From positions 1-64,000 of the forward strand of contig CALKGQ010000024.1 of NCBI GenBank assembly GCA_938085425.1: a stretch of 64,000 nucleotides of DNA. Direction: 5' to 3'. Positions within the stretch are counted from its first letter, which is position 1. Each line of letters begins with the position of its first letter. A program made the position numbers and the translations under genes. The stretch comes from an uncultured Flavobacteriales bacterium (GTDB taxonomy: Bacteria > Bacteroidota > Bacteroidia > Flavobacteriales_D > Sanyastnellaceae). Shown piece after piece: positions 48,184 to 60,049 of this stretch. The notes beneath the pieces were generated by a model. The model was not told the DNA's origin. It saw nothing but the letters and a program-made list of their open reading frames with translations, and made no database searches.

Positions 48184-51100
48184 TCAGCAGATCTGTCCGA
48201 ATGCAGTCAAGAATTCGAGCAAGTCAGCTGTAGAAACGGAACCGTCTCCGTTCAAATCAGCAGGACAAGGGTTTGCAATGTCGAAATCACAAGAACCATC
48301 GTCAATCACTGCACCTTCGCTGTAGTTGGTTGCACTGTCGTACGTACAGCCAGAGCATCCGTCAAACACACAGAGTGTGATGTCTGGAATGTTCGTGTTT
48401 TCGTTGTAGTTGCAAGCCGAAGCGATGTCACATCCAACGACACAGGCGTCACCTGAGCCCACGTTGAACGAGACAGTCTCGCCAGCACCACCGGAAACAA
48501 TGCCTCCGAATGCGCCACCCACGTTCCAAGAAACCTCGGTGGGGTATGCCCCTTCAGTTACTGAAATGGTGTAGCACCCGTCTGCAAGGCAGTAGGTGTC
48601 TGAACCATTGCTACCAACTTCAATGGTGCCTGTTCCGAGAACGGTACCATCCACAGCGGAAAGCGTGTATGCCGCATCGTTCCAGCCGTCGCCGAAGCTG
48701 TCAATCATGTTCACTGTCACGCAGTTGTCAGAGCAGCAAGAGCCGTCGTCGATCAATGCATCTGCATCGTAGTTGCAAGCAGTGTTGTCCGTACATCCTG
48801 CACAAGACTCAAACTCACATGAACCATCTTCGTCGGTGGCATCGGCATCGTAGTTGCAAGCACCTGCGTCAGTACAGCCGCAAACAGCGCCACCAACAGA
48901 AATTGTGATGCCGTCGGTAGGTCCACCTGAAGCCAACACCTCGCCGTTCTGGTCAAGCGCCTGCCAAGAGACCTCTGAAGGCCAATCTCCATTTGAAACC
49001 GAAATGCTGTAGCAACCTGGTGCCAAGCAGAAGAAGTCTGATCCAAATTCAGGACCGGTGGAGTTGTCGGCATCCACGAATGTTGCAGCCTCATCGAGGT
49101 TACCAGTAGCCACGACGTTGCCGTCGAGGTCAGCCACTGTGTATGCAGATCCGTTCCAACCGTCACCAAATGAATCGTTCATGAAGAATTCAATGGGTGT
49201 ACCAGTCTCGTCTGCACAGAGGCAGCTGAAGAAATCGCAATCACCACTGTCGACGTTGGCGTCCACGTTGTAGTTGCAAGCTGCACTGTCCGTGCAACCC
49301 TCCACCACTGCGGCGCAATCGAACACGAGGTCGAATGCACCATTGTCGTCGGTCAACGGCGAACCGTCCACGTCAGAGGCACCCACGTAAACGTAGTAGG
49401 TCAATCCAGGGGTCGAGATGAACTCGAAGTTCACGTCGTCCGCGTCAAACAGATCACATGCACCAGTGCCATCAGAAGCCAACGCAGAAGCAGCACAAGT
49501 GAAATCACCAGCGATGTAAATCGGCTCAGTGCTGTAAGGTGCAATCGTGATGACCGCTGAACCTTCACCACCAGCATCCAATCCGGCAATGCCCATGAGG
49601 TCGCCCAGTCCGTCGGTGAAGGTGGCGCTGGCGCCATTCCATCCGTCAGCATAAGCATCCACCATCAACAAAGTGTAGTCACCGGCATCCAAACAAATGG
49701 AACCAGAGCTTGGAGCACCACCAGAAAGAACGGTGTCCCCATTGGCGTTGGTCAAATCCCAAGAGATTTCGCTGTCCCAAGTGCCTCCACCCACAGAGTA
49801 GGTCGTGGTCACTTGTGTGTCGCAAGGGTCAGCCGCAGGAGCGTCGATTCCGCCACCACCACATGCTTCAGTCGCAGTGTAGATGTTGATTTTGGAATCA
49901 ATGGCTGAACCACATGTGCTCAAGTTGATCAAGGAGCTGTCTCCCTCAAAGGTGTACCAAACACCAGCGCCAGGAGAAGCCTCACAACCGGCGACGTTCA
50001 ATGGAGCACCAATGCTCGTTGAACCACCTGTTGATCCGACAACAACAGTATTGCATTCCAACGCAATGGCATCGGCACACTCGTCGTTTGCCGGCGTCAC
50101 ACCAGTGAAGTCACAAGATCCATCGTCTTGGTTGGCAGCTGGGTTGTAGTTGTTCGCCTGTGCATCAGTGCAACCCAAGAGGATGCCCGTCGTCGTGAAT
50201 TCAAAGTCTCCACAAGTCGCCTGATCGTCGGTCCAAATCACGAAGTAGTAGTCCGTGTTGGGGTCCAGTTGTGGCAAGAAGCCTTCCACTGAACCTGCAC
50301 AAGTACCTGTAACAACGCAACCCACAAATGGGCCCAAGTCATCACAAGTGCTTCCAGTCAACATGGCGAATCCGATGGACTCGTTGGTCAAGTTGGTCGC
50401 ATTGAAGAAGAAGGTGTTGAAATCACCGCTGTTGAATGTGAAGTACACAGCGTATGGCGTTCCTGTTCCTTCCCAAACCAAGTTCAACTCTTCAGCATTG
50501 GCACCACAAAGGTTCCCCGTGAAAGTTTCGCCACTGACCTGAGTGATGGCTCCAGCGCAGTCGTCGTTGGATGGTGAAGTCGTCACTGCAGTATTGCAAG
50601 AGGCCGCCAACACGAAGTTGCTTCCGCCAGCGCCTTCAACACGCACGTAGTAGTCCATACCAGTCATGGCAGACCAAGTGATGGCACTGTGGAAACCAGT
50701 TGCACAACCATCGTTGTTGGTGGCGATGCAAGTCAAGGCACCGTCCAAATCTTGAGTGAAAATGGCGAGGTCCGTAGATGTCGCGTAGTCTGTGTCCACA
50801 TCGTTCAATGGGGTGTCACAGGTGCTCATGGTGATCTGTTGGTCCGCGTCAGAGTTGATCACGTACCACACACCAGCTGCACCCAACACGTCGTTTCCGT
50901 ACTCCAAACCGCTCAACGCTTCGTTGTCATTTGCGTACTGGATAGAACCAGAAACGCTACCTCCACAGAACATACCTTCTGCATTGGCCACATCGTCGTT
51001 TGCTGGAGGGAACTCACATGAACCATCGTCGACTGTCGCCGATGGGTCGTAGTTGTTCGCTGAAGTGTCAGAGCAACCTTCGAAGCCACACTGGCCTGTC

Positions 51101-52851
51101 AAAGTGAAGTCCAATCCATAGTCTTGACCCGCACCAACAGTTTGGTAAACCGTACCGAACTGGTCAGAAAGATCAATGCTCACCTCCCCTGGGAAGGAAT
51201 CATCGAGAACCTGGAAGTTGTAGCAACCTGGTGCCAAGCAAATCAAGTCTGAACCTGCAGTGAGGCCGTCACCTGTGAATGCCGTACCAAGAGATCCACT
51301 GTCCACCAATGCCCCTGAAGACAAGTCGTAGAGGTAGTACTCTGAACCTGACCATCCGTCGCCGAAGCTGTCAGCCATGTCCACGTTCAAGATGAACGTT
51401 CCTGGATCGCAGTAGATGCAAGCTCCGCTGTCGACCGTAGCGTTGGGGTCGTAGTTCGCTGCAGACGAATCGGTGCAACCGATGCAGCTGAAGTCACATG
51501 AACCGTCGTTGATGTCTGCTGTGGCGTCGTAGTTGCACGCACCGCTGTCGTTGCAACCTCCAACACATGAAGCTGAACCAAATGAACCTTCTGTTCCGTC
51601 ACCCGACAAGAGTTCCTCACCGGTGATGGCGTTGGTCAAAGACCATGAAGTCTCCCCTGGGTAGGCGTCAGGTGTCAAGCTCACCACAACACAAGCATCT
51701 GCATCTTCAGCACAGAAGAGTGTGGTTTCAGAGGCACCAAAGTCACCACCTGAGGCAACAACTTCTCCCGCCAAGGAAACAGAGTAAGAACCTTCTCCAT
51801 ATGCGCAGCAAATGCCGTCACCGAATTGATCGTTGATGGTGAAGTTGTAGTACACACCCTCACAGTAAACACACAAGTCGTTGTCGATGATGGTCGCGTC
51901 AGCGTCGTAGTTCAAGGCTGTTTCGTCACCGCAACCAATGCAGCTGTAATCACATGAACCATTGTCCAAAGTCGCTGTGTCGTCGTAGTTGCAAGACGCT
52001 GGGTCCGTGCAACCCGCGCAAGAGAGGTACTCACAAGAACCGTCATTGAAGTTGGAATTCTCGTCGTAGTTGCATGCAGAAGCGTCGTTGCATCCAGCAA
52101 CAACACAAGCATCTGAACCTGCAAAGAAGAAGAAGTCAGCATCAAAGGTTGTACCACCGCCACCAAAACCGCTTCCGGAGTTGATGACATTGCCTGCAGC
52201 ATCTACAGCTTCCCATGAAGCTTCTTGACCCCATGCTCCCATGGAAATCTGGGCTGTGTAGCAACCTTCGGGCAAACACAAGTCGAAAGACTGAGCCGCA
52301 CCAGTGATTTCTGTGGAGTCACCGTTGAGGATGAAACCACCCCAAGCGCCACCACTCGCGAATGACCATCCGTCACCGAATGAATCGAACGTGTTGATGG
52401 TGATGAGGTTGTCCAAGCAGCAGGATCCGTCGTCGACGGTTGCTCCTTCATCGTAGTTGGCTGCTGCAGGATCAGTGCAACCGGGAATGTCCGCGCTTAC
52501 AGCGAGAACAATGGAAGCAACATCAGTTGCAACCGTGACCTCAGTGGTCAATCCGTTCCAAGTGAAACTGGCGTTTTCGCCGTCCCATCCGTCTCCATAG
52601 GAATCGGAACCAATGAAGGTGTAGTCGCCAGCAGCGAGGCACCAGGTGCCAGCTTCACCAGCGAAACCAGAAAACAAGTTGTTTCCGGCAGCGTCATTGA
52701 GTTGCCAAGAAACTTCACTTGCGAAAGAAGTGGTTGGAATCACGTAGTCCACGGCAATTTCGCCGTCGGCACACTGAGCCCAAGCACCAGTTGAAAAGAG
52801 AAGCGCAAACGCTCCAAGAGCGGTCGCCATCTTTGTGTACATGTTGAACAT
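48184..52851 (-). CDS. Very large secreted cysteine-repeat protein with dockerin-like C-terminus
   Basis: A 1,555-residue exported protein (signal peptide MFNMYTKMATALGAFALLF, cut near AWAQ). It contains 13 copies of a 21- to 22-residue unit of the form GCxDxxAxNYDxxAxxDDGSC; the last three copies and the fourth deviate. These alternate with 90-residue beta modules marked by DSFGDGW, LAxGCYxIxV and PxEVSW. A central region (about 600-1,090) has other beta modules (VWYVINSDADQQITMSTC, VWYTFEGDSSLINLSTC). The end is CPADLNGDGSVSTADLLEFL, one calcium-loop dockerin-like repeat framed by cysteines. No T9SS type A or B domain is visible. Likely a disulfide- and calcium-stabilised surface or matrix protein. 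The start at 52851 fits a promoter at 52873-52900. Confidence 0.82.
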   Translation of the reverse strand: MFNMYTKMATALGAFALLFSTGAWAQCADGEIAVDYVIPTTSFASEVSWQLNDAAGNNLFSGFAGEAGTWCLAAGDYTFIGSDSYGDGWDGENASFTWNGLTTEVTVATDVASIVLAVSADIPGCTDPAAANYDEGATVDDGSCCLDNLITINTFDSFGDGWSFASGGAWGGFILNGDSTEITGAAQSFDLCLPEGCYTAQISMGAWGQEASWEAVDAAGNVINSGSGFGGGGTTFDADFFFFAGSDACVVAGCNDASACNYDENSNFNDGSCEYLSCAGCTDPASCNYDDTATLDNGSCDYSCIGCGDETALNYDADATIIDNDLCVYCEGVYYNFTINDQFGDGICCAYGEGSYSVSLAGEVVASGGDFGASETTLFCAEDADACVVVSLTPDAYPGETSWSLTNAITGEELLSGDGTEGSFGSASCVGGCNDSGACNYDATADINDGSCDFSCIGCTDSSAANYDPNATVDSGACIYCDPGTFILNVDMADSFGDGWSGSEYYLYDLSSGALVDSGSLGTAFTGDGLTAGSDLICLAPGCYNFQVLDDSFPGEVSIDLSDQFGTVYQTVGAGQDYGLDFTLTGQCGFEGCSDTSANNYDPSATVDDGSCEFPPANDDVANAEGMFCGGSVSGSIQYANDNEALSGLEYGNDVLGAAGVWYVINSDADQQITMSTCDTPLNDVDTDYATSTDLAIFTQDLDGALTCIATNNDGCATGFHSAITWSAMTGMDYYVRVEGAGGSNFVLAASCNTAVTTSPSNDDCAGAITQVSGETFTGNLCGANAEELNLVWEGTGTPYAVYFTFNSGDFNTFFFNATNLTNESIGFAMLTGSTCDDLGPFVGCVVTGTCAGSVEGFLPQLDPNTDYYFVIWTDDQATCGDFEFTTTGILLGCTDAQANNYNPAANQDDGSCDFTGVTPANDECADAIALECNTVVVGSTGGSTSIGAPLNVAGCEASPGAGVWYTFEGDSSLINLSTCGSAIDSKINIYTATEACGGGGIDAPAADPCDTQVTTTYSVGGGTWDSEISWDLTNANGDTVLSGGAPSSGSICLDAGDYTLLMVDAYADGWNGASATFTDGLGDLMGIAGLDAGGEGSAVITIAPYSTEPIYIAGDFTCAASALASDGTGACDLFDADDVNFEFISTPGLTYYVYVGASDVDGSPLTDDNGAFDLVFDCAAVVEGCTDSAACNYNVDANVDSGDCDFFSCLCADETGTPIEFFMNDSFGDGWNGSAYTVADLDGNVVATGNLDEAATFVDADNSTGPEFGSDFFCLAPGCYSISVSNGDWPSEVSWQALDQNGEVLASGGPTDGITISVGGAVCGCTDAGACNYDADATDEDGSCEFESCAGCTDNTACNYDADALIDDGSCCSDNCVTVNMIDSFGDGWNDAAYTLSAVDGTVLGTGTIEVGSNGSDTYCLADGCYTISVTEGAYPTEVSWNVGGAFGGIVSGGAGETVSFNVGSGDACVVGCDIASACNYNENTNIPDITLCVFDGCSGCTYDSATNYSEGAVIDDGSCDFDIANPCPADLNGDGSVSTADLLEFLTAFGQIC

Positions 52852-53179
52852 TAGAACAGGTTTTGGTTTAAACAAACAATTGAAATTTTCTCATTCTCAA
52901 CGCCTCTTTCCATCCGCATCCACTGAAGAAGGACGCACGGAACAAGGCGAGGTTGCCTCCAAGAGACTCGTTCCCAAGTCACTTTTCAACGGGCTAAATG
53001 TAGGAGAGTGCACCCGGAAAACCAACAATCGTTAAAGATTATTTGACGACGCTTCCATGCCGTTGGTCGGGAAAGGTCGTTGTTTGGTCGGTGATTCTTG
53101 CGCAACTTGCTGATTCACAACAGCGTGGGATTGAACAAAACGACCAGTGCATTTGTATCGCGTCAAAACGATGGTCGAT
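52852..53179. other. 328-bp non-coding region upstream of the Cys-repeat gene
   Basis: No gene or RNA was recognised. The left end holds the promoter of the Cys-repeat gene. Two direct copies of TTGGTCGG begin 21 bp apart (53063 and 53084), with GGTCGTTG between them. They could be binding sites on one face of the helix. Small open frames here are short and without similarity. Confidence 0.5.
52873..52900 (-). promoter_or_regulatory. Promoter of the Cys-repeat gene
   Basis: On the minus strand TTG (52898-52900), 17 nt, then ATTGTTTG (52873-52880). The -7 element departs from TAnnTTTG at its first two bases. The spacing fits, and the predicted leader to the ATG at 52851 is about 15 nt. Confidence 0.45.
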
Positions 53180-53695
53180 TCACCACATTTCAGCGTGCCA
53201 CGAATCGGCCACACGCTTGACGCCCTCGCGGCGCAAATCGCCCAATTGAGTGACCGTCGTGTCCACCACCTGCGCCGAAGCCGGATCCACGTTGCCGCAT
53301 TTGATTTGGGCCCAAAATTCATGGAGCCTCATCCGCGACCATTTTGCCCCAGCTCCTTCATTTCGATGCACCACCCAGGAGCGGTCGAAGAGGTCCAAGT
53401 CGGCCAACGAAGGAGTCGCACTGCCCAAGCCCTTGAGCGCGGCCACAGAAGCATCGATGCTGCACCCCGTGGCGGCCTGAATGGACTCGTCCACGGCCAA
53501 CACAACAAGTTGATCCAACACCACCGTGGCCTGAGCATGGAGCGGCTTGCCGTGGGCAGCCCATCCTTTGAGAAAAGCGCCAAGTGCCTCCTTCACCTCC
53601 TGACGCTCAGAGGCACTCAGGGTTCGGTTGCAGGTGTAGACCCAAACGCGTGAGGCATCGGGCAAGGTCAACTCGGTCAGGGGCAATTGTTCCAT
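53180..53695 (-). CDS. Conserved Bacteroidota protein of unknown function (often mislabelled ABC transporter ATPase)
   Basis: A 171-residue soluble protein. It has no Walker A or ABC signature, so the common database label cannot be right. Recognisable family blocks are RVWVYTCNRTLSASERQEV, FLKGWAAHGKPLHAQATVVLDQLVVLAVDES, ATGCSIDASVAALKGLG and LFDRSWVVHR. The GCSID block has a Cys next to a Ser and Asp. A good -7 box (TACCTTTG) lies 8 nt upstream of the ATG, so it can be transcribed apart from the exosortase genes that end 49 bp upstream. Confidence 0.75.
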   Translation of the reverse strand: MEQLPLTELTLPDASRVWVYTCNRTLSASERQEVKEALGAFLKGWAAHGKPLHAQATVVLDQLVVLAVDESIQAATGCSIDASVAALKGLGSATPSLADLDLFDRSWVVHRNEGAGAKWSRMRLHEFWAQIKCGNVDPASAQVVDTTVTQLGDLRREGVKRVADSWHAEMW

Positions 53696-53703
53696 GGTCG
53701 AGG

Positions 53704-53738
53704 CAAAGGTACTTTCAAGAGAAGTCGAGAGGCATCAA
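53704..53738 (-). promoter_or_regulatory. Promoter of the unknown-function gene at 53180-53695
   Basis: On the minus strand TTG (53736-53738), 24 nt, then TACCTTTG (53704-53711), an exact TAnnTTTG match. Eight bases separate the box from the ATG at 53695, so the leader would be very short. Confidence 0.5.
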
Positions 53739-53744
53739 GAAGGA

Positions 53745-54314
53745 TCAAGAAACAGAGGGAGGGTCCAAGGACTGCAGCATCCAAGGAATGGCCACCACCA
53801 TCAAGGAGGGCAGTGGCGACTGAAGGAACCCTAGCATGTCGCGGGCCAGCGCGTACCACGGCCATCCCGGCGAACTCAACGCCAGGCCCACCATGGGCAC
53901 CCCCGAGGTTACGTAGATCAGCAACAGCCAAGGCACGCGGTCAGGCACCCCCGCAGTGCGCAAAAACAAAACGTCGAGCATGAAAAACACCACCAAGATG
54001 ACGGCAGAAAGCCCCCACTTGAAGGCGACCAACTCCCCACGGTCCAGGCCGTGGAAGACGTTCCAAGTGGAACGGCTCACGTAAAAGTTGTGCCTGCCCA
54101 CCGGCGCGTGGTCCTTCCACCACGCCAAACGAGACCCCGCGTCGTCCTGCCAAAATTGCGCCTCGTCCCCCACCTTGAGGTAGTGGTTGACCTTGATTTT
54201 GGACTGCTCCTGCAAGAGCCCAAAGCCCAGCATCGCCAGGAGCACCAGCAACCACCATGGCCGGCGCCAGGGCAGCATCGGCGGGCGACCTTCCGACTTC
54301 GGACGCCCCGTCAT
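53745..54314 (-). CDS. Exosortase F-associated membrane protein
   Basis: A 189-residue protein with about five helices: WWLLVLLAMLGFGLL at the start, a soluble loop with NHYLKVGDEAQFWQDD and NFYVSRSTWNVFHGLDRG, then LSAVILVVFFMLDVLFLRTAG, VPWLLLIYVTSGVPMVGLALS and LPSLMVVAIPWM. This layout matches the small membrane protein found beside XrtF in flavobacteria. Its role is unknown; it is presumed to assist the exosortase. The ATG at 54314 overlaps the xrtF stop by 4 bp, which strongly supports pairing. Confidence 0.8.
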   Translation of the reverse strand: MTGRPKSEGRPPMLPWRRPWWLLVLLAMLGFGLLQEQSKIKVNHYLKVGDEAQFWQDDAGSRLAWWKDHAPVGRHNFYVSRSTWNVFHGLDRGELVAFKWGLSAVILVVFFMLDVLFLRTAGVPDRVPWLLLIYVTSGVPMVGLALSSPGWPWYALARDMLGFLQSPLPSLMVVAIPWMLQSLDPPSVS

Positions 54315-54868
54315 GACGCGCGTCGGGCCCGGCGGCCTTGAAGGGTCCACAAGTACCACAACCCAAAGACCCCTCCGTAAATGAGGACCGTGAAGGTGTA
54401 ATCGTGGTTGAACTCGAGCCACTCAGGGGCGGTGGCCTGCATCCGCGCAAGCACAATCACCCGCCCAATGTTGGCCGCATGAAGCACGACGATCCCCAGC
54501 GGAATGAACCAAAGCTTGGCGGTCCAAGGACCGGGAAAGGCCAAAATGAAAATGGAAAACAAGGCAAAGAGCGCCACGCCGTCGCATGAGGCACCGATTT
54601 GGACCCCGGCATGGCCTGCCACCCCCACGCGGTCCTTGTGCGTCGCCGGCTGGGGATAGGCGCCAGGCTCCCACCCCATCCACCCAAAGGCGGTCTCCGT
54701 GGCATCCACCATGTGCGCTATGACCACCTCGTCCAGCATGGTCCGGGGCTTGAGCACCTGCTCGTACGCCACACTCCAGACGATGTAGGCCAAAAAAGCC
54801 GACACAAAGAATCGAAACGTTGGGGTGTTCCGCAACTCCCGGAACGTGGACCGTGGTGTCGTAGGCAT
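54311..54868 (-). CDS. xrtF: Exosortase XrtF, transpeptidase-like sorting enzyme
   Basis: A 185-residue polytopic membrane protein of the exosortase/archaeosortase superfamily. The three catalytic residues are in place: Cys95 in GASCDGVALFALF, Arg136 in AANIGRVIVLA and His155 in EFNHDYTFTV. Enzymes of this group cleave short C-terminal sorting signals and pass the protein to a membrane or polysaccharide acceptor. The short length and neighbours indicate the flavobacterial XrtF type. The start is the ATG at 54868; upstream in-frame codons are not family-like. It lies 34 bp after a gene whose product has a matching tail. Confidence 0.88.
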   Translation of the reverse strand: MPTTPRSTFRELRNTPTFRFFVSAFLAYIVWSVAYEQVLKPRTMLDEVVIAHMVDATETAFGWMGWEPGAYPQPATHKDRVGVAGHAGVQIGASCDGVALFALFSIFILAFPGPWTAKLWFIPLGIVVLHAANIGRVIVLARMQATAPEWLEFNHDYTFTVLIYGGVFGLWYLWTLQGRRARRAS

Positions 54869-54902
54869 CACCAAATGCTTGTGTCCTCGACGGTGTTGAG
54901 AC

Positions 54903-55211
54903 TTAGGCCTCTTTCTCGAGCAACTCCTCCTCCCTCCGACGGCGCATCGCCGCCGTGGCAAGTCCTCCTCCCGCAATCGCCAACAAACTCAACCCACCGT
55001 CGAGTGGGATGGTGGTGCAATCATTGGGTTCGGAGTAATCCGAGCAATTTGGGTCACAAACCACATTGTCCGAATCAAAATATGTGCCGCCGCATGCCTG
55101 AGGGCTGCCGACCCCATCATCTGAATCTGGGTCACAACAAATTTGAGCCTGAACAAGAGTTGGCACCGCCAACAACAGAAATCCGAACACAATTTTGGAA
55201 AACGACTTCAT
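54903..55211 (-). CDS. Small secreted Cys-rich protein with PID-CTERM-like sorting tail
   Basis: A 102-residue protein. Signal peptide: MKSFSKIVFGFLLLAVPTLVQAQ. The mature stretch of about 45 residues has six cysteines and many Asp residues (DPDSDDGVG, CDPNCSDYSEPNDC). The C-terminus is tripartite: PLDGG at 69-73, a hydrophobic Gly/Ala-rich helix (74-88) and RRRR with a charged end. This matches the PID-CTERM signal (usually P-I-D-G-G) associated with XrtF, with Ile replaced by Leu. It is therefore the probable substrate of the adjacent exosortase. It diverges from the polysaccharide kinase gene by 40 bp. Confidence 0.85.
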   Translation of the reverse strand: MKSFSKIVFGFLLLAVPTLVQAQICCDPDSDDGVGSPQACGGTYFDSDNVVCDPNCSDYSEPNDCTTIPLDGGLSLLAIAGGGLATAAMRRRREEELLEKEA

Positions 55212-55237
55212 TAAAATGCAGGTAAAGGAGCGGGACA

Positions 55238-55245
55238 TACTTTTG
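55238..55245 (+). promoter_or_regulatory. -7 box of the polysaccharide copolymerase/kinase gene
   Basis: TACTTTTG matches TAnnTTTG exactly. Six bases separate it from the ATG at 55252, so the message would be leaderless or nearly so. This box also decides the start codon, since two upstream in-frame ATGs would lie before the transcription start. Confidence 0.6.
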
Positions 55246-55251
55246 CGCAAG

Positions 55252-57672
55252 ATGGCAAAGAACTCCCACACTCCGCTCGTCAGCTTCGAAGATTTGAGGC
55301 CGTACATCAAATTGCTCGGCAAAAATTGGTGGCTGTTGGCAGTGTTGGCGGTTGCCGGGTACAGTGGCGGGCGGCTTGTCACCCACCAAATGGTCGACGT
55401 CCACAACGCCACAGCGGAGATCCTTGTGAACCAAAAAGAGAGCAACGGCATCGACGCCATGCTCGGAGGGCGCGGAGGCTCCCGCGGGTTCAGCTACTAC
55501 AACGACGACGTCCAAAACCAACTGCGCGTGCTTCGCTCCTACGACCTCGTGGGCCGGGCCATCGACAAAATCAACGACCCCATCGACCACTATTACGTGG
55601 GCCGCATCAAAGAGACTCCTTCAGAACGATTTGGTTCTCTCGACATCGAGGTGGACATGGAGGAATGGGGTGCCGACATGGCCGGGGCGGCCATTGACCT
55701 CTTCGTTCTGGACACACAGCGGTACAAGATGGTGTTGCGCGCGACGCAGCCCCAAAGCGACCAAGTGGCTTTGGAAGCGGCGTTTGGGCAGCGGGTGCAG
55801 AAGGAAGGCATCGCCCTGACCGTTCGGTTGGACCCTGAACTGGCGCGCAGCGCAGAGCGACTAGAAGCTGCGTCTTTGCAGCATTTCCGGATCCGGGTCA
55901 AAACCCGAGACCAGCGGATTGGCCAATACCGCGGGTCCTTGCAAACCACCAATGTGGAGCGCACCAGCATCATCACGTTGACCTGCAGGGACGTCATCCC
56001 GGGTCGTGCCAAGCGGTTCCTCGACTCCTTGGCGGCCACCTACATCGATTACACCGCGGAAGCGCGCTTGGCCACGAGCCTTCAAACCGAGGTGTACATC
56101 GATGGGCAGCTCGACGAAATCAACGCTTTGACAGACACCCTTGAGCGTCAGGTGGATTTTTACCGGGCCCAAAACGAAGTGCTGGACCTCACTCGGGAAC
56201 AAAACGAATACTTCAACTCCTTGGTGGATCTCGAGCGTCAGCTGCGGGAAATGGACGTGCAGGCTGAATCCCTCGACGATCTCGGGGTCTTTTTGACGGC
56301 ACCGGGCGGCACCGCAGAATTGCCGCCTTCCAGCTATTTCATGCTGGACGACCCATGGATGGGCGAACAAATGGGGGCCTTGATGGAATTGGAGGCCAAG
56401 CGATCCGCCATGCTTCTCGACGTTCAACCGGGGTCGTACCAAGTGCGGCGCCTCGACTCCAGCGCGCAACACGTGCGCAGCAATGTGGTGAGCTACCTCG
56501 CTGACAAAATGGGCACCGTGGAACGACGACGCATCAACTTGCAATCCGACATCCGCGGACTGGAGTCCAGGCTGTCGGGGTTGCCCAAAACCCAACGCGA
56601 CATCCTGGCCATGGAGCGCAAGCTTGGGGTCAACGAAAAACTCGCTGTGTACCTGCTCGAGCGCAAGGCCGCGACAATCATTGCCCGCGCCAGCATCACG
56701 CCGGAAGCCTCGTTGATTGAGCGCGCGCGCTACGCAGGCATGGTGGGGCCTGACAAAAGGCGCACCATCCTGACCTACACCGCGGCAGGACTCCTGCTCG
56801 CCTTGGCCCTTGCAGTGGCCCGCATGCTGTTGTTCGAGCGACTCGAGACCATGTCGGAACTGCGAGAAGCCGTCGAGTCCCCTGTCATTGGAGGCATCCC
56901 TTTCTACCCTGAGATGGCGCAAGACCCCATCGCCTGCCGCGCCGACAGCCGCAGCGCAGTGACAGAGGCCTTCAGGGCCCTGCGCACCAATTTGCAGTAC
57001 CTGCTCGCCAAAGAAGGCGCCAACGTCATTTTGGTCTCTTCGTTGCACCCCCAAGAGGGGAAAAGCTTTGTGTCGAGCAACCTTGCGAGCATCTTGGCCA
57101 AAGCGGGCAAAAAAGTGGCCCTTGTCGACTTCGACATGCACAAACCAAGGATCCATCACTACTTGGGGATGTCCAACGACCGCGGGGCATCCACCGTGAT
57201 GATCGGCCAAGGCACCTTGTTGGACGTGACCCAAAAAGGCCCGTACGACGCACTCGATGTCATCACCGCAGGCCCTGTGCCGCCCAACGCGTCCGACTTG
57301 ATTTTGAGCGAACGGATGACCGAGAGCATCGCCACCTTGAAAAAGAAGTACGACTTTGTGATCCTCGACACCCCACCGATTTCACTGATCAGCGACGCCC
57401 TCGTGTTGATGCAACACGTCGACACCGCACTGCTCGTGACCAATGTGTCCAAATCGTCAAGGCGTGGCGTGCAACATCTCGAAGAGTTGTTGGAGCAAAA
57501 CAATTTGTCGCATGCCTCCTTTGTGCTCAACGGTGTAAGGTCCAAACGCTGGGCCCGGTATTACAACCGCTATGCCACGAAGTACGGGTATGCCGCCTAC
57601 GGCGCCGACTACGGCTACGGGTACGGGTACGGTGGGTCAGAGCGGTACAAGAACCCCGAGGCAGAAGCTTGA
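55252..57672 (+). CDS. Polysaccharide copolymerase with tyrosine autokinase domain (Wzc-like)
   Basis: An 806-residue inner-membrane protein. A Wzz domain with a first helix (WWLLAVLAVAGYSGG) and a long periplasmic coiled-coil part leads to a second helix near 520-540 (ILTYTAAGLLLALALAVARML). The cytoplasmic BY-kinase domain follows: Walker A HPQEGKSFVSSNLA near residue 600, A' VALVDFDMHKPR and Walker B FVILDTPPISL. The C-terminal 35 residues hold a tyrosine cluster alternating with Gly (YGYGYGYGG), the autophosphorylation site. Such proteins set chain length and export of capsule or exopolysaccharide. No glycosyltransferases are nearby, so the polymer is unknown. Divergent from the exosortase substrate gene. 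Confidence 0.92.
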   Translation: MAKNSHTPLVSFEDLRPYIKLLGKNWWLLAVLAVAGYSGGRLVTHQMVDVHNATAEILVNQKESNGIDAMLGGRGGSRGFSYYNDDVQNQLRVLRSYDLVGRAIDKINDPIDHYYVGRIKETPSERFGSLDIEVDMEEWGADMAGAAIDLFVLDTQRYKMVLRATQPQSDQVALEAAFGQRVQKEGIALTVRLDPELARSAERLEAASLQHFRIRVKTRDQRIGQYRGSLQTTNVERTSIITLTCRDVIPGRAKRFLDSLAATYIDYTAEARLATSLQTEVYIDGQLDEINALTDTLERQVDFYRAQNEVLDLTREQNEYFNSLVDLERQLREMDVQAESLDDLGVFLTAPGGTAELPPSSYFMLDDPWMGEQMGALMELEAKRSAMLLDVQPGSYQVRRLDSSAQHVRSNVVSYLADKMGTVERRRINLQSDIRGLESRLSGLPKTQRDILAMERKLGVNEKLAVYLLERKAATIIARASITPEASLIERARYAGMVGPDKRRTILTYTAAGLLLALALAVARMLLFERLETMSELREAVESPVIGGIPFYPEMAQDPIACRADSRSAVTEAFRALRTNLQYLLAKEGANVILVSSLHPQEGKSFVSSNLASILAKAGKKVALVDFDMHKPRIHHYLGMSNDRGASTVMIGQGTLLDVTQKGPYDALDVITAGPVPPNASDLILSERMTESIATLKKKYDFVILDTPPISLISDALVLMQHVDTALLVTNVSKSSRRGVQHLEELLEQNNLSHASFVLNGVRSKRWARYYNRYATKYGYAAYGADYGYGYGYGGSERYKNPEAEA

Positions 57673-57844
57673 GGGCCAGGGGCCATGCCGTCTGCGGCGT
57701 CGCCCACACTCCCATGTGAGCAACACGGGGGACGCAACCCATGTCCTTGGGCCGGCGTCCATACTTTAGCAAGGGAAACGCCGTTCTTCTACCCCGGCGT
57801 TCCACACTTCCATGACGGCCACCTTTCATACCAAGCCGCGTTCC

Positions 57845-60049
57845 ATGAAGCGGATGTTCCAGCGATGGAATGGCTGTGGTGTGTCTGTCCTGCTGTTGGG
57901 TGCCTCCTTCATTGGAGCCAGCAACCATGTGCACGCACAGTCGCCCCCCAACTTCACCCACATCGACAATGTCAATGCCGCGGGCAATGCGACGCTGTAT
58001 TGGGACGTGTTCTCTCCCGTGGGCACAGAAGAATTTGTCCAAAACGAGGTGAAGGTGTTCGACATGGACCTCAATCCACTGGGGACCCAATGGCACCTCA
58101 TTTCCTCGGAAATCGTCAATGGCAACTTGGTGCTTCCCACAGGATGGGTGATGCCGTCCTTTCTTTACGATGCCAACCAATTCGCCCATTGCTTTGTGGG
58201 GGTTCAGGTCACGGTGGAAGGCGGTGTGCAATCGGTGTCTGAGCAATCAGATTTTTTGTGCTCCATCCATTTGGACCTTCAGGAAGGGGCGTTGCCTGGA
58301 ACCTTTGACTTGACGTGGAACAGCCCCTATGTGCTGTCCCCAGGAAGCATTGGCGGCATGTTCCAACTCGAACGGCTCGACGGTGCGTCAGGTGAGTACG
58401 AATTGGTGGCTGAATTTCCTGACTCCCCATTTGGCGGTGGCGGCGGGTTCTACACCGACAACCCTGGACCCTGCGCACAGCAATTGATCTACAGGGTCCG
58501 GCAAATTGCAGAAAATGGCACCGACATCCATGTCAGCAACATCGTGGACTACCTCGTGGGGACAGTCGGTGGAGAGACGCCCACCGTCACCCACGTCGAT
58601 GTGGAGAATGGACAAGCGCATGTCTATTGGGACTTTGAGCCCGAGCCAGAAACGCTCGGTTACGTCATCTACAAATGCCTCGATTCCGGTGGGGGCGCCA
58701 TCGTTGCGACCTTGGACGACCCCAGCGTGGACAATTTGTCCATCGCCACGTCCATTGCAGGGACGGAGCCCGAGAGCTACCAAGTGGCCGCTTACGATTG
58801 CATCGACGACGACGGCACCCCCAATCCCTCGGGTGCGGGAGGCTGCGCGCGAACAGTGTTCCTGACCGCGGCCCAAATCCCTTGCACCGACCGTGCTCAA
58901 CTTGCATGGATCTATCCACAGGGCATCGCAGGCGAGGTGGTCGAGTTCATTCCCCAATACAGTGAAGATGGCGGGGCTTGGGTCAGCTTGGACACCCTGT
59001 CGGGCACCGGTCAATCGATGGTCCACGAAGGGGCCTCGCTCGAAGCCTCCGTGGCATACCGGTTGTTGGCCAACACCAGCGAACTTCACACCGCTGCGTC
59101 CAACGTGGTGGAAGTCTCTTTTGAATACCCCGACGCTCCGGCCTCACCTCAAATCCAGCGGGCGTCGGTGCTCGACCGTCAGCGCGTGGAGGTGGTGCTT
59201 TCAACGGACCCCACCGCCGAAGAGGTCTCGTTGTATGAGTTCCAAAAATGGAACGACAGCGACAGCTCTTGGATCCCCTTGACGCCGCGTTACCCATCGA
59301 GCTTGGGCTTTCCCGTCAGCCATGTGGACACCGAACTGAACACCGACGAATACGCCTACCGCTACCGCGCTGTGGCCTACAATGGATGCGAGGCCGTGGT
59401 GGCCCAATCCCAAGAAGCAGGAACCATGCTACTGAGAGGCTTCCAAAGCACCACGCCTGGTTTCTTTGAAAACAGCTTGGTGTGGACCCCTTACTCAGGG
59501 TTTGGCAACGGTTTGGAGCGCTACGAGGTTTTGCGCAAACAAACCAGCGACCTCGCGGTGCAAGGCACTCCACTTGCCACGGTGAGCGCATTGTCTGAAA
59601 CCCACGAAGATGAAGTGGGGGACGAATTCGATTCGCCCGGCATTTTTTGCTATCGAATCCTTGCCATGGGATTCCCGGACTCGACCGAAGTGCTGCCGGG
59701 GGCGGCCTCCAATTGGGTATGTCTGACGGAGGACCCCATTGTTTGGATCCCCACAGCCTTCAGCCCCAACGGCGATGACCTCAACGACTGGTTTCCATGG
59801 GCACCAGGGGAAGCCAACGTGGGCTTCCTGGGCGAACCGCAGGGCAGCAACCCCAACTTCAAGATGGACGTCATCACCCGGTGGGGCACCAAGATTTTTT
59901 CGACCGATTCTGTGGAGGAACCTTGGGACGGAAGGGTCGACGGCGATTTGGCCCCCACAGGGGTGTACGCCGTGGTCCTCCAATACTTGGATGGCGCCGG
60001 CGCTTGGCGCAGCCAGACACAACAACTTACTGTGCTTCCAAGCCAGTGA
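57845..60049 (+). CDS. Secreted protein with T9SS type B (gliding-associated) C-terminal domain
   Basis: About 734 residues with a signal peptide (MKRMFQRWNGCGVSVLLLGA, cut near VHAQ). The mature part has several fibronectin-III-like beta domains (ATLYWDVFSP, HVYWDFEPEPETLGYVIYK, NSLVWTPYSGFGNGLERYEVLR). The last 95 residues are the CHU_C/type B domain: WIPTAFSPNGDDLNDWF, MDVITRWGTKIFST, WDGRVDGDLAPTGVYAVVLQY. Type B domains send proteins through T9SS, often with SprF-type partners, in gliding or surface adhesion. An ATG at 57812 in the same frame is an alternative start. The 172-bp gap before it holds TACTTTAG (57762-57769), a weak -7 box. Confidence 0.88.
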   Translation: MKRMFQRWNGCGVSVLLLGASFIGASNHVHAQSPPNFTHIDNVNAAGNATLYWDVFSPVGTEEFVQNEVKVFDMDLNPLGTQWHLISSEIVNGNLVLPTGWVMPSFLYDANQFAHCFVGVQVTVEGGVQSVSEQSDFLCSIHLDLQEGALPGTFDLTWNSPYVLSPGSIGGMFQLERLDGASGEYELVAEFPDSPFGGGGGFYTDNPGPCAQQLIYRVRQIAENGTDIHVSNIVDYLVGTVGGETPTVTHVDVENGQAHVYWDFEPEPETLGYVIYKCLDSGGGAIVATLDDPSVDNLSIATSIAGTEPESYQVAAYDCIDDDGTPNPSGAGGCARTVFLTAAQIPCTDRAQLAWIYPQGIAGEVVEFIPQYSEDGGAWVSLDTLSGTGQSMVHEGASLEASVAYRLLANTSELHTAASNVVEVSFEYPDAPASPQIQRASVLDRQRVEVVLSTDPTAEEVSLYEFQKWNDSDSSWIPLTPRYPSSLGFPVSHVDTELNTDEYAYRYRAVAYNGCEAVVAQSQEAGTMLLRGFQSTTPGFFENSLVWTPYSGFGNGLERYEVLRKQTSDLAVQGTPLATVSALSETHEDEVGDEFDSPGIFCYRILAMGFPDSTEVLPGAASNWVCLTEDPIVWIPTAFSPNGDDLNDWFPWAPGEANVGFLGEPQGSNPNFKMDVITRWGTKIFSTDSVEEPWDGRVDGDLAPTGVYAVVLQYLDGAGAWRSQTQQLTVLPSQ

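Follow-up and report, generated by a model that had tools for sequence, protein, structure and literature searches.

A conserved locus joining a PID-CTERM-type microprotein and exosortase X to a Wzc-like kinase in a marine Flavobacteriales bacterium

The window analyzed here, a stretch of 64,000 nucleotides from contig CALKGQ010000024.1 of an uncultured marine Flavobacteriales bacterium (family Sanyastnellaceae), carries a compact locus in which genes for an exosortase and its presumed substrate, a microprotein with a PID-CTERM-type tail, lie head-to-head with the gene for a Wzc-like polysaccharide copolymerase and tyrosine kinase (Table 1). The five genes were found as an earlier note on this DNA had drawn them, with the same strands, the same overlap, and the same 40 bp between the start codon of the substrate and the start of the kinase. 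The arrangement is more than chance, because it recurs across the window's family.

Table 1. Genes of the exosortase-kinase locus, in window coordinates.
Feature	Position	Strand	Remarks
PID-CTERM microprotein, presumed XrtX substrate	54903..55211	-	102 aa; signal-peptide-like start, 6 Cys, PID-type tail
Parts of the PID-CTERM microprotein			predicted mature stretch of 49 residues (6 Cys), PLDGG motif, hydrophobic helix, RRRR tail
Exosortase X (XrtX)	54311..54868	-	185 aa; Cys95/Arg136/His155
Protein in place of XrtX-associated membrane protein	53745..54314	-	4-bp overlap with exosortase gene
DUF171 (171-aa protein; label given in this analysis)	53180..53695	-	kinase neighbor in the window's family
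Wzc-like polysaccharide copolymerase / BY-type tyrosine kinase	55252..57672	+	alternative start 55216 (in-frame ATG)

The exosortase scored 174.9 bits against the XrtX model NF046081 (cut-off 170) and 81 bits against the XrtF model TIGR04128 (cut-off 90). The name XrtF, used in the earlier note, was dropped, since the curated NCBIfam cut-offs favour XrtX. The Cys, Arg and His residues that the note had described as intact are present in the window protein and invariant in 28/28 aligned exosortases, and the Pfam EpsH model gave no match in the window's own genome. The substrate does have the expected PID-type tail, with a borderline score: against the PID-CTERM model NF046080 (cut-off 26), it reached 23.5 bits in the protein scan, 25.8 bits in the genome search, and 26 bits in that same search with its neighbours in the frame. 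The protein in the associated place scored 18.4 bits against NF046082 (cut-off 75); its position is nonetheless conserved, and a relative in locus L084 reached 61.7 bits. The structure model of the associated protein, with a mean predicted local distance difference test (pLDDT) score of 92.6, consists of helices and two short strands, and a PDB search with it gave no match at E ≤ 0.001.

The kinase scored 158.6 bits against the polysaccharide tyrosine autokinase model TIGR01007 (cut-off 108.05) and 221 bits against the Wzc equivalog PRK11519 (cut-off 1068), and is classed on these scores as Wzc-like, not as Wzc itself. Inspection by eye found EGKS at residue 602, VDFDMH at 625 and LDTPP at 705, motifs that we take to have nucleotide-binding roles, together with a Tyr-rich tail. 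The window's genome has one kinase matching the family kinase model at E ≤ 1e-20, and the search found one Wza. The element TACTTTTG, at 55238-55245 on the plus strand and 6 bp ahead of the kinase ATG at 55252, resembles the Bacteroidetes -7 promoter element. The remaining gene had been assigned to a family of unknown function, and its product, DUF171, has no Pfam or NCBIfam match at E up to 1. The DUF171 structure model is confident (pLDDT 96.2), and a PDB search with it gave no match at E ≤ 0.001.

A match to XrtX at E ≤ 0.001 was found in 91 of 296 phylum genomes and was above the cut-off in 37, of which 36 (all but G147) have a PID-CTERM match; conversely, all 49 PID-carrying genomes of the phylum sample have an exosortase match (both counted by eye). 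In the window's family, the exosortase occurs in 89 of 114 genomes and in 21/21 genera, and the named records aligning with XrtX are, by title, mostly uncultured Flavobacteriales.

We found that the linkage of XrtX to the kinase is conserved in this family. Among the 84 window-family genomes having both genes, the two are head-to-head in 55, and DUF171 follows XrtX in 53 of the 54 head-to-head genomes having DUF171. The coordinates behind this count were copied from searches, excluding weaker kinase paralogs and a handful of small fragments; G303, G365 and G405, with partial or weak kinases, stand outside the count, and as G365 has XrtX, 84 could be 85. Among 79 named loci, the kinase is head-to-head in 38 of the 66 that extend 1 kb or more beyond XrtX on its upstream side, and a PID-type micro-gene recognized by our own pattern lies between XrtX and the kinase in 38/38 of these. 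Both sides could be evaluated in 61 loci: 36 have the kinase, DUF171 and the associated protein, 19 have the associated protein only, and 4 have none; the last two are L139, a coordinate artefact that is in fact linked, and L156, a broken copy. When loci were labelled as linked or not on the XrtX tree, 4 changes of the label sufficed, as compared with a mean of 19.6 after shuffling, and 0/500 shuffles were as low. For this label, a 30-bit kinase fragment sufficed to count L173 as linked, and loci visible on just one side were included; relatedness accounts for part of this low count. Damaged copies of the locus were also seen, with stop codons (G298:C19) or frame breaks (L156) in the kinase and DUF171.

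The PID substrates are, as read from their open reading frames (ORFs), mostly microproteins. When the mature stretch is taken from the signal-peptide cut, placed by our own rule, to the PID motif, its median length is 24 residues (range 16-56) in 38 window-family loci, all with at least two Cys, as compared with 15 (range 14-38) in 39 micro-ORFs of other families, none with two Cys. A Cys-x6-8-Cys core like PPCGGPFGPACPID was counted by eye in 31 of the 38 window-family peptides, and most mature peptides have a predicted N-terminal Gln. Counter-examples come from family f9, in whose genomes 9 of 148 PID matches fall within frames of 948-1008 aa, in contrast to the micro-ORFs usually seen, and a further 6 within frames of 200-302 aa.

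In G341, a full-size relative, the kinase is followed by genes for GT2, cytidylyltransferase, class III aminotransferase, NeuB and WbuX amidotransferase, among others, and a similar sugar-gene cluster was seen by eye in G045; the cluster headed by the kinase in full-size relatives looks like one for acidic amino sugars. The asparagine-synthase protein of G341 also matches the XrtA/PEP-CTERM amidotransferase model, with a score of 289, below the cut-off of 816.9. In the window, a CHU_C-domain protein and an IMP-dehydrogenase-like gene take the place of the relatives' sugar genes; the former, a 745-aa protein at 57812-60049 (+) beside the kinase, has a CHU_C/type IX secretion system (T9SS) type B sorting domain above the Pfam cut-off and below the NCBIfam cut-off. 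On the other side, at 48184-52875 (-), lies a very large protein that looks secreted and, as judged by eye, contains many Cys-rich repeats and ends in a dockerin-like region; it matches no Pfam or NCBIfam family. A similarly large ORF adjoins DUF171 in many of the window-family loci read.

Further associations with Wza and Wzc have other gene orders. L099 and L180 carry PID, XrtX (165.5 bits in L180, narrowly missing the cut-off), a gene occupying the position of the associated protein, Wza and Wzc, all in the same orientation. At locus L263, genome G091 carries an XrtX-like gene (120.9 bits, below the cut-off), a gene at the associated position, Wza and Wzc, and elsewhere, at L262, PID-Wza-Wzc; the associated place in L099, L180 and L263 was assigned by position only. 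In G226 (locus L261), 1.1 kb separates PID from a divergent Wza-Wzc pair, and in L168 and L173 a Wzc-like gene, a weak fragment in L173, is divergent from the PID-XrtX side.

A pattern not foreseen in the earlier note, the pairing of PID genes with T9SS cargo, emerged in some other families. A gene with a T9SS sorting domain lies directly upstream, on the same strand, of 30/39 PID micro-ORFs, as compared with 7/221 other genes in the same loci (Fisher p about 9e-25, kinship ignored), and 28 of the 30 pairs have a gap of at most 113 bp between the two genes. The 39 micro-ORFs came from 35 of 40 fetched loci, five having no micro-ORF by our own pattern (one of these, L263, had been fetched for XrtX). 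Pairing was found in 26/27 cases in f23, 2/2 in f9 and 2/2 in f50, and in 0/8 across f4, f6, f21, f42 and f43 together. The C-terminal domain (CTD) model used for this sample was built from the same loci, with curated models and a second sample as checks. Curated models confirmed the sorting domain in 8, 9 and 3 proteins tested (overlapping sets). The second sample comprised 30 loci of family f9, the best match per genome from 56 PID-carrying genomes, two of them having no PID ORF by our own pattern, and showed pairing in 20/28; L288, with a CTD gene just outside our rule, was scored as a miss, and two loci of this family were in the CTD training set, neither among the 28. The supposition that the cargo bodies are mutually unrelated was not supported, as the 29 compared form one single-linkage group at E < 1e-5; the 26 cargo loci compared fall into 17 neighborhood groups. 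The PID genes beside XrtX follow T9SS type A genes in L159, L162, L101 (with an exosortase below the XrtX cut-off), L167 and L168, and do not in L099 and L170. L168 unites the elements, with a Wzc kinase divergent from T9SS cargo-PID-XrtX. This micro-substrate pattern is broader and less expected than the kinase linkage.

We propose, giving the idea an even chance of being correct, that XrtX, apparently dedicated to one very small exported peptide, attaches it to an acceptor in the envelope and in the window's family serves a Wzc-dependent polymer, at a locus built of two modules. One module consists of the kinase and DUF171, and the other of the PID microprotein, XrtX and the associated protein. 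The microprotein would be exported by its signal peptide and then held in the inner membrane by the PID-CTERM helix, whereupon XrtX would cut at the PID motif and pass the short peptide to the acceptor. In the window's family, the product would serve the surface polymer, which the peptide may decorate, prime or anchor; in some other families, the processed peptide may serve T9SS cargo, acting in trans for the partner encoded next door. What the analysis shows is the gene content, the family membership, the conserved linkage, the modularity and how small the substrates are; the processing, the acceptor and the tie to the polymer are what we infer here, and a functional coupling of the XrtX system with the kinase is plausible. 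As the earlier note supposed, XrtX may join the peptide to a polymer with a length governed by the kinase.

Several findings weigh against this proposal. XrtX is not head-to-head with the kinase in 29 of the 84 window-family genomes, and the linked cases are not independent, because the linkage is inherited. PID-CTERM was recognized in 70 of the 114 window-family genomes (57 above the cut-off), as compared with 89 having XrtX; G373 and G338 have XrtX with no PID match. Beside the window's kinase, no polysaccharide genes were recognized, and the genes for the polymer must therefore lie elsewhere. The earlier note had named a lack of conserved kinase linkage in relatives as grounds for dropping its idea; the idea survived this check within the family, but such proximity is rare outside it, where XrtX or PID lies within a few kb of Wzc in 3/47 PID genomes (G091, G226 and G273; 35 of the 47 have a kinase match, and proximity was judged by eye from coordinates); in f23, PID genes near Wzc kinases were looked for by eye and not found. 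The usual neighbor of PID genes in three other families is T9SS cargo.

The unlinked genomes also bear on the modular structure. In 19 of the 29, DUF171 directly adjoins the kinase at a distance of 118-309 bp, and XrtX is found elsewhere; in the remaining 10, XrtX and the kinase are on different contigs with no direct DUF171-kinase pair, eight having DUF171 otherwise placed (G305, G316, G325, G361, G366, G370, G390 and G391) and two lacking it (G351 and G358). In G373, which belongs to the window's genus, the flanks look like those of the window, with, in order, a dehydrogenase-like gene, a large secreted-looking protein, DUF171, the kinase, a further large protein and an IMP-dehydrogenase-like gene, but DUF171 and the kinase are not separated by the PID-XrtX-associated module, which therefore behaves as a unit able to sit in or out of this gap. 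The idea that DUF171 belongs specifically to the exosortase system was rejected, since its relatives occur in 87 of 247 phylum genomes sampled and since, in the window's family, it stays by the kinase when XrtX is elsewhere. Outside this family, no kinase was found within 1.5 kb of DUF171 in 28 loci read. Within the family, DUF171 is equally well conserved as a kinase neighbor, and neighbors can therefore persist by descent. This would fit a small surface protein sorted by an exosortase in the ordinary way, with the kinase a neighbor inherited without functional tie, as would a clade of 15 XrtX rows which, together with L140, keeps the enzyme away from the kinase. We consider this explanation unlikely, as Wza-Wzc adjacency recurs in other families with other gene orders and, at the locus, the kinase and DUF171 are found together or not at all.

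The T9SS pairing allows a different emphasis, in which XrtX/PID mainly supports T9SS, the micro-peptide being a cargo-specific anchor or adaptor for the upstream T9SS protein and the polysaccharide tie reflecting a shared surface glycan that holds both. The excess of pairs over background, the second sample and the curated sorting-domain models argue for it, as do the gene order of L168 and an earlier speculation (PMC7468200) on an exosortase acceptor resembling the T9SS linking sugar. However, pairing is absent from the eight cases in f4, f6, f21, f42 and f43, and in the window's family the PID gene adjoins the kinase, the large neighbor at 48184-52866 falling in no Pfam or NCBIfam family; we regard this emphasis as rather doubtful. 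The very short mature sequences, the N-terminal Gln predicted in most and the recurrent Cys-x6-8-Cys core would also suit a released signal or membrane-active peptide, with XrtX as its maturation protease. Proline-rich sequences elsewhere look structural, and we judge such release very improbable. A wider form of our proposal would make PID-CTERM/XrtX a peptide-handle system, in which a peptide of 10-50 residues between signal peptide and tail, made beside a T9SS cargo or Wza-Wzc partner, would be loaded by XrtX onto an envelope glycan or lipid, anchoring or marking the partner in trans. We advance this tentatively, as a possibility we would sooner doubt than accept; the target may be a peptide handle, not a protein. 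That some families pair micro-substrates with T9SS cargo, and others XrtX with Wza-Wzc polymers, points to a shared surface-anchoring chemistry in Bacteroidota.

To our knowledge, what exosortases attach their substrates to is an open question; the window's substrate is small enough that mass spectrometry could read the attached product directly. In the literature searched, no mention of 'PID-CTERM' was found, and of the papers on XrtX, XrtY or 'exosortase X' none was, by title, on the present topic. Among known systems, T9SS type A cargo with PorU attachment is likewise a surface-anchoring route in Bacteroidota, and its cargo genes lie beside PID micro-genes in three other families, whereas the window's substrate sits between xrtX and the kinase. 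A paper on the T9SS linking sugar raises the speculation that the acceptors of exosortases may also be sugars modified with amino acids, which would connect the two systems; a tie was thus suggested earlier, without such gene pairs in the part read (PMC7468200). The PEP-CTERM substrates of the XrtA/EpsH system are mostly full-size proteins, and its exosortase belongs to another family than the window's XrtX. As at the window, that system is tied to polysaccharide genes, including those for chain-length proteins (PMC1569441). The XrtF system of Flavobacterium (TIGR04128, Fjoh_1448/1449) has a related small exosortase and an adjacent associated-protein gene, although the window's exosortase is below the XrtF cut-off; deletion of either the xrtF exosortase or its associated gene in Flavobacterium johnsoniae left much less biofilm (PMC10936215). 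The XrtX/PID-CTERM system itself (NF046081, NF046080, NF046082) shares with the window an exosortase above the family cut-off, a PID-type tail and an associated gene downstream of the exosortase. The window differs from it in its borderline substrate, its associated protein far below the cut-off, the usual recognition of one PID match per window-family genome, the linkage of the locus to the kinase and DUF171, and a Cys-rich substrate.

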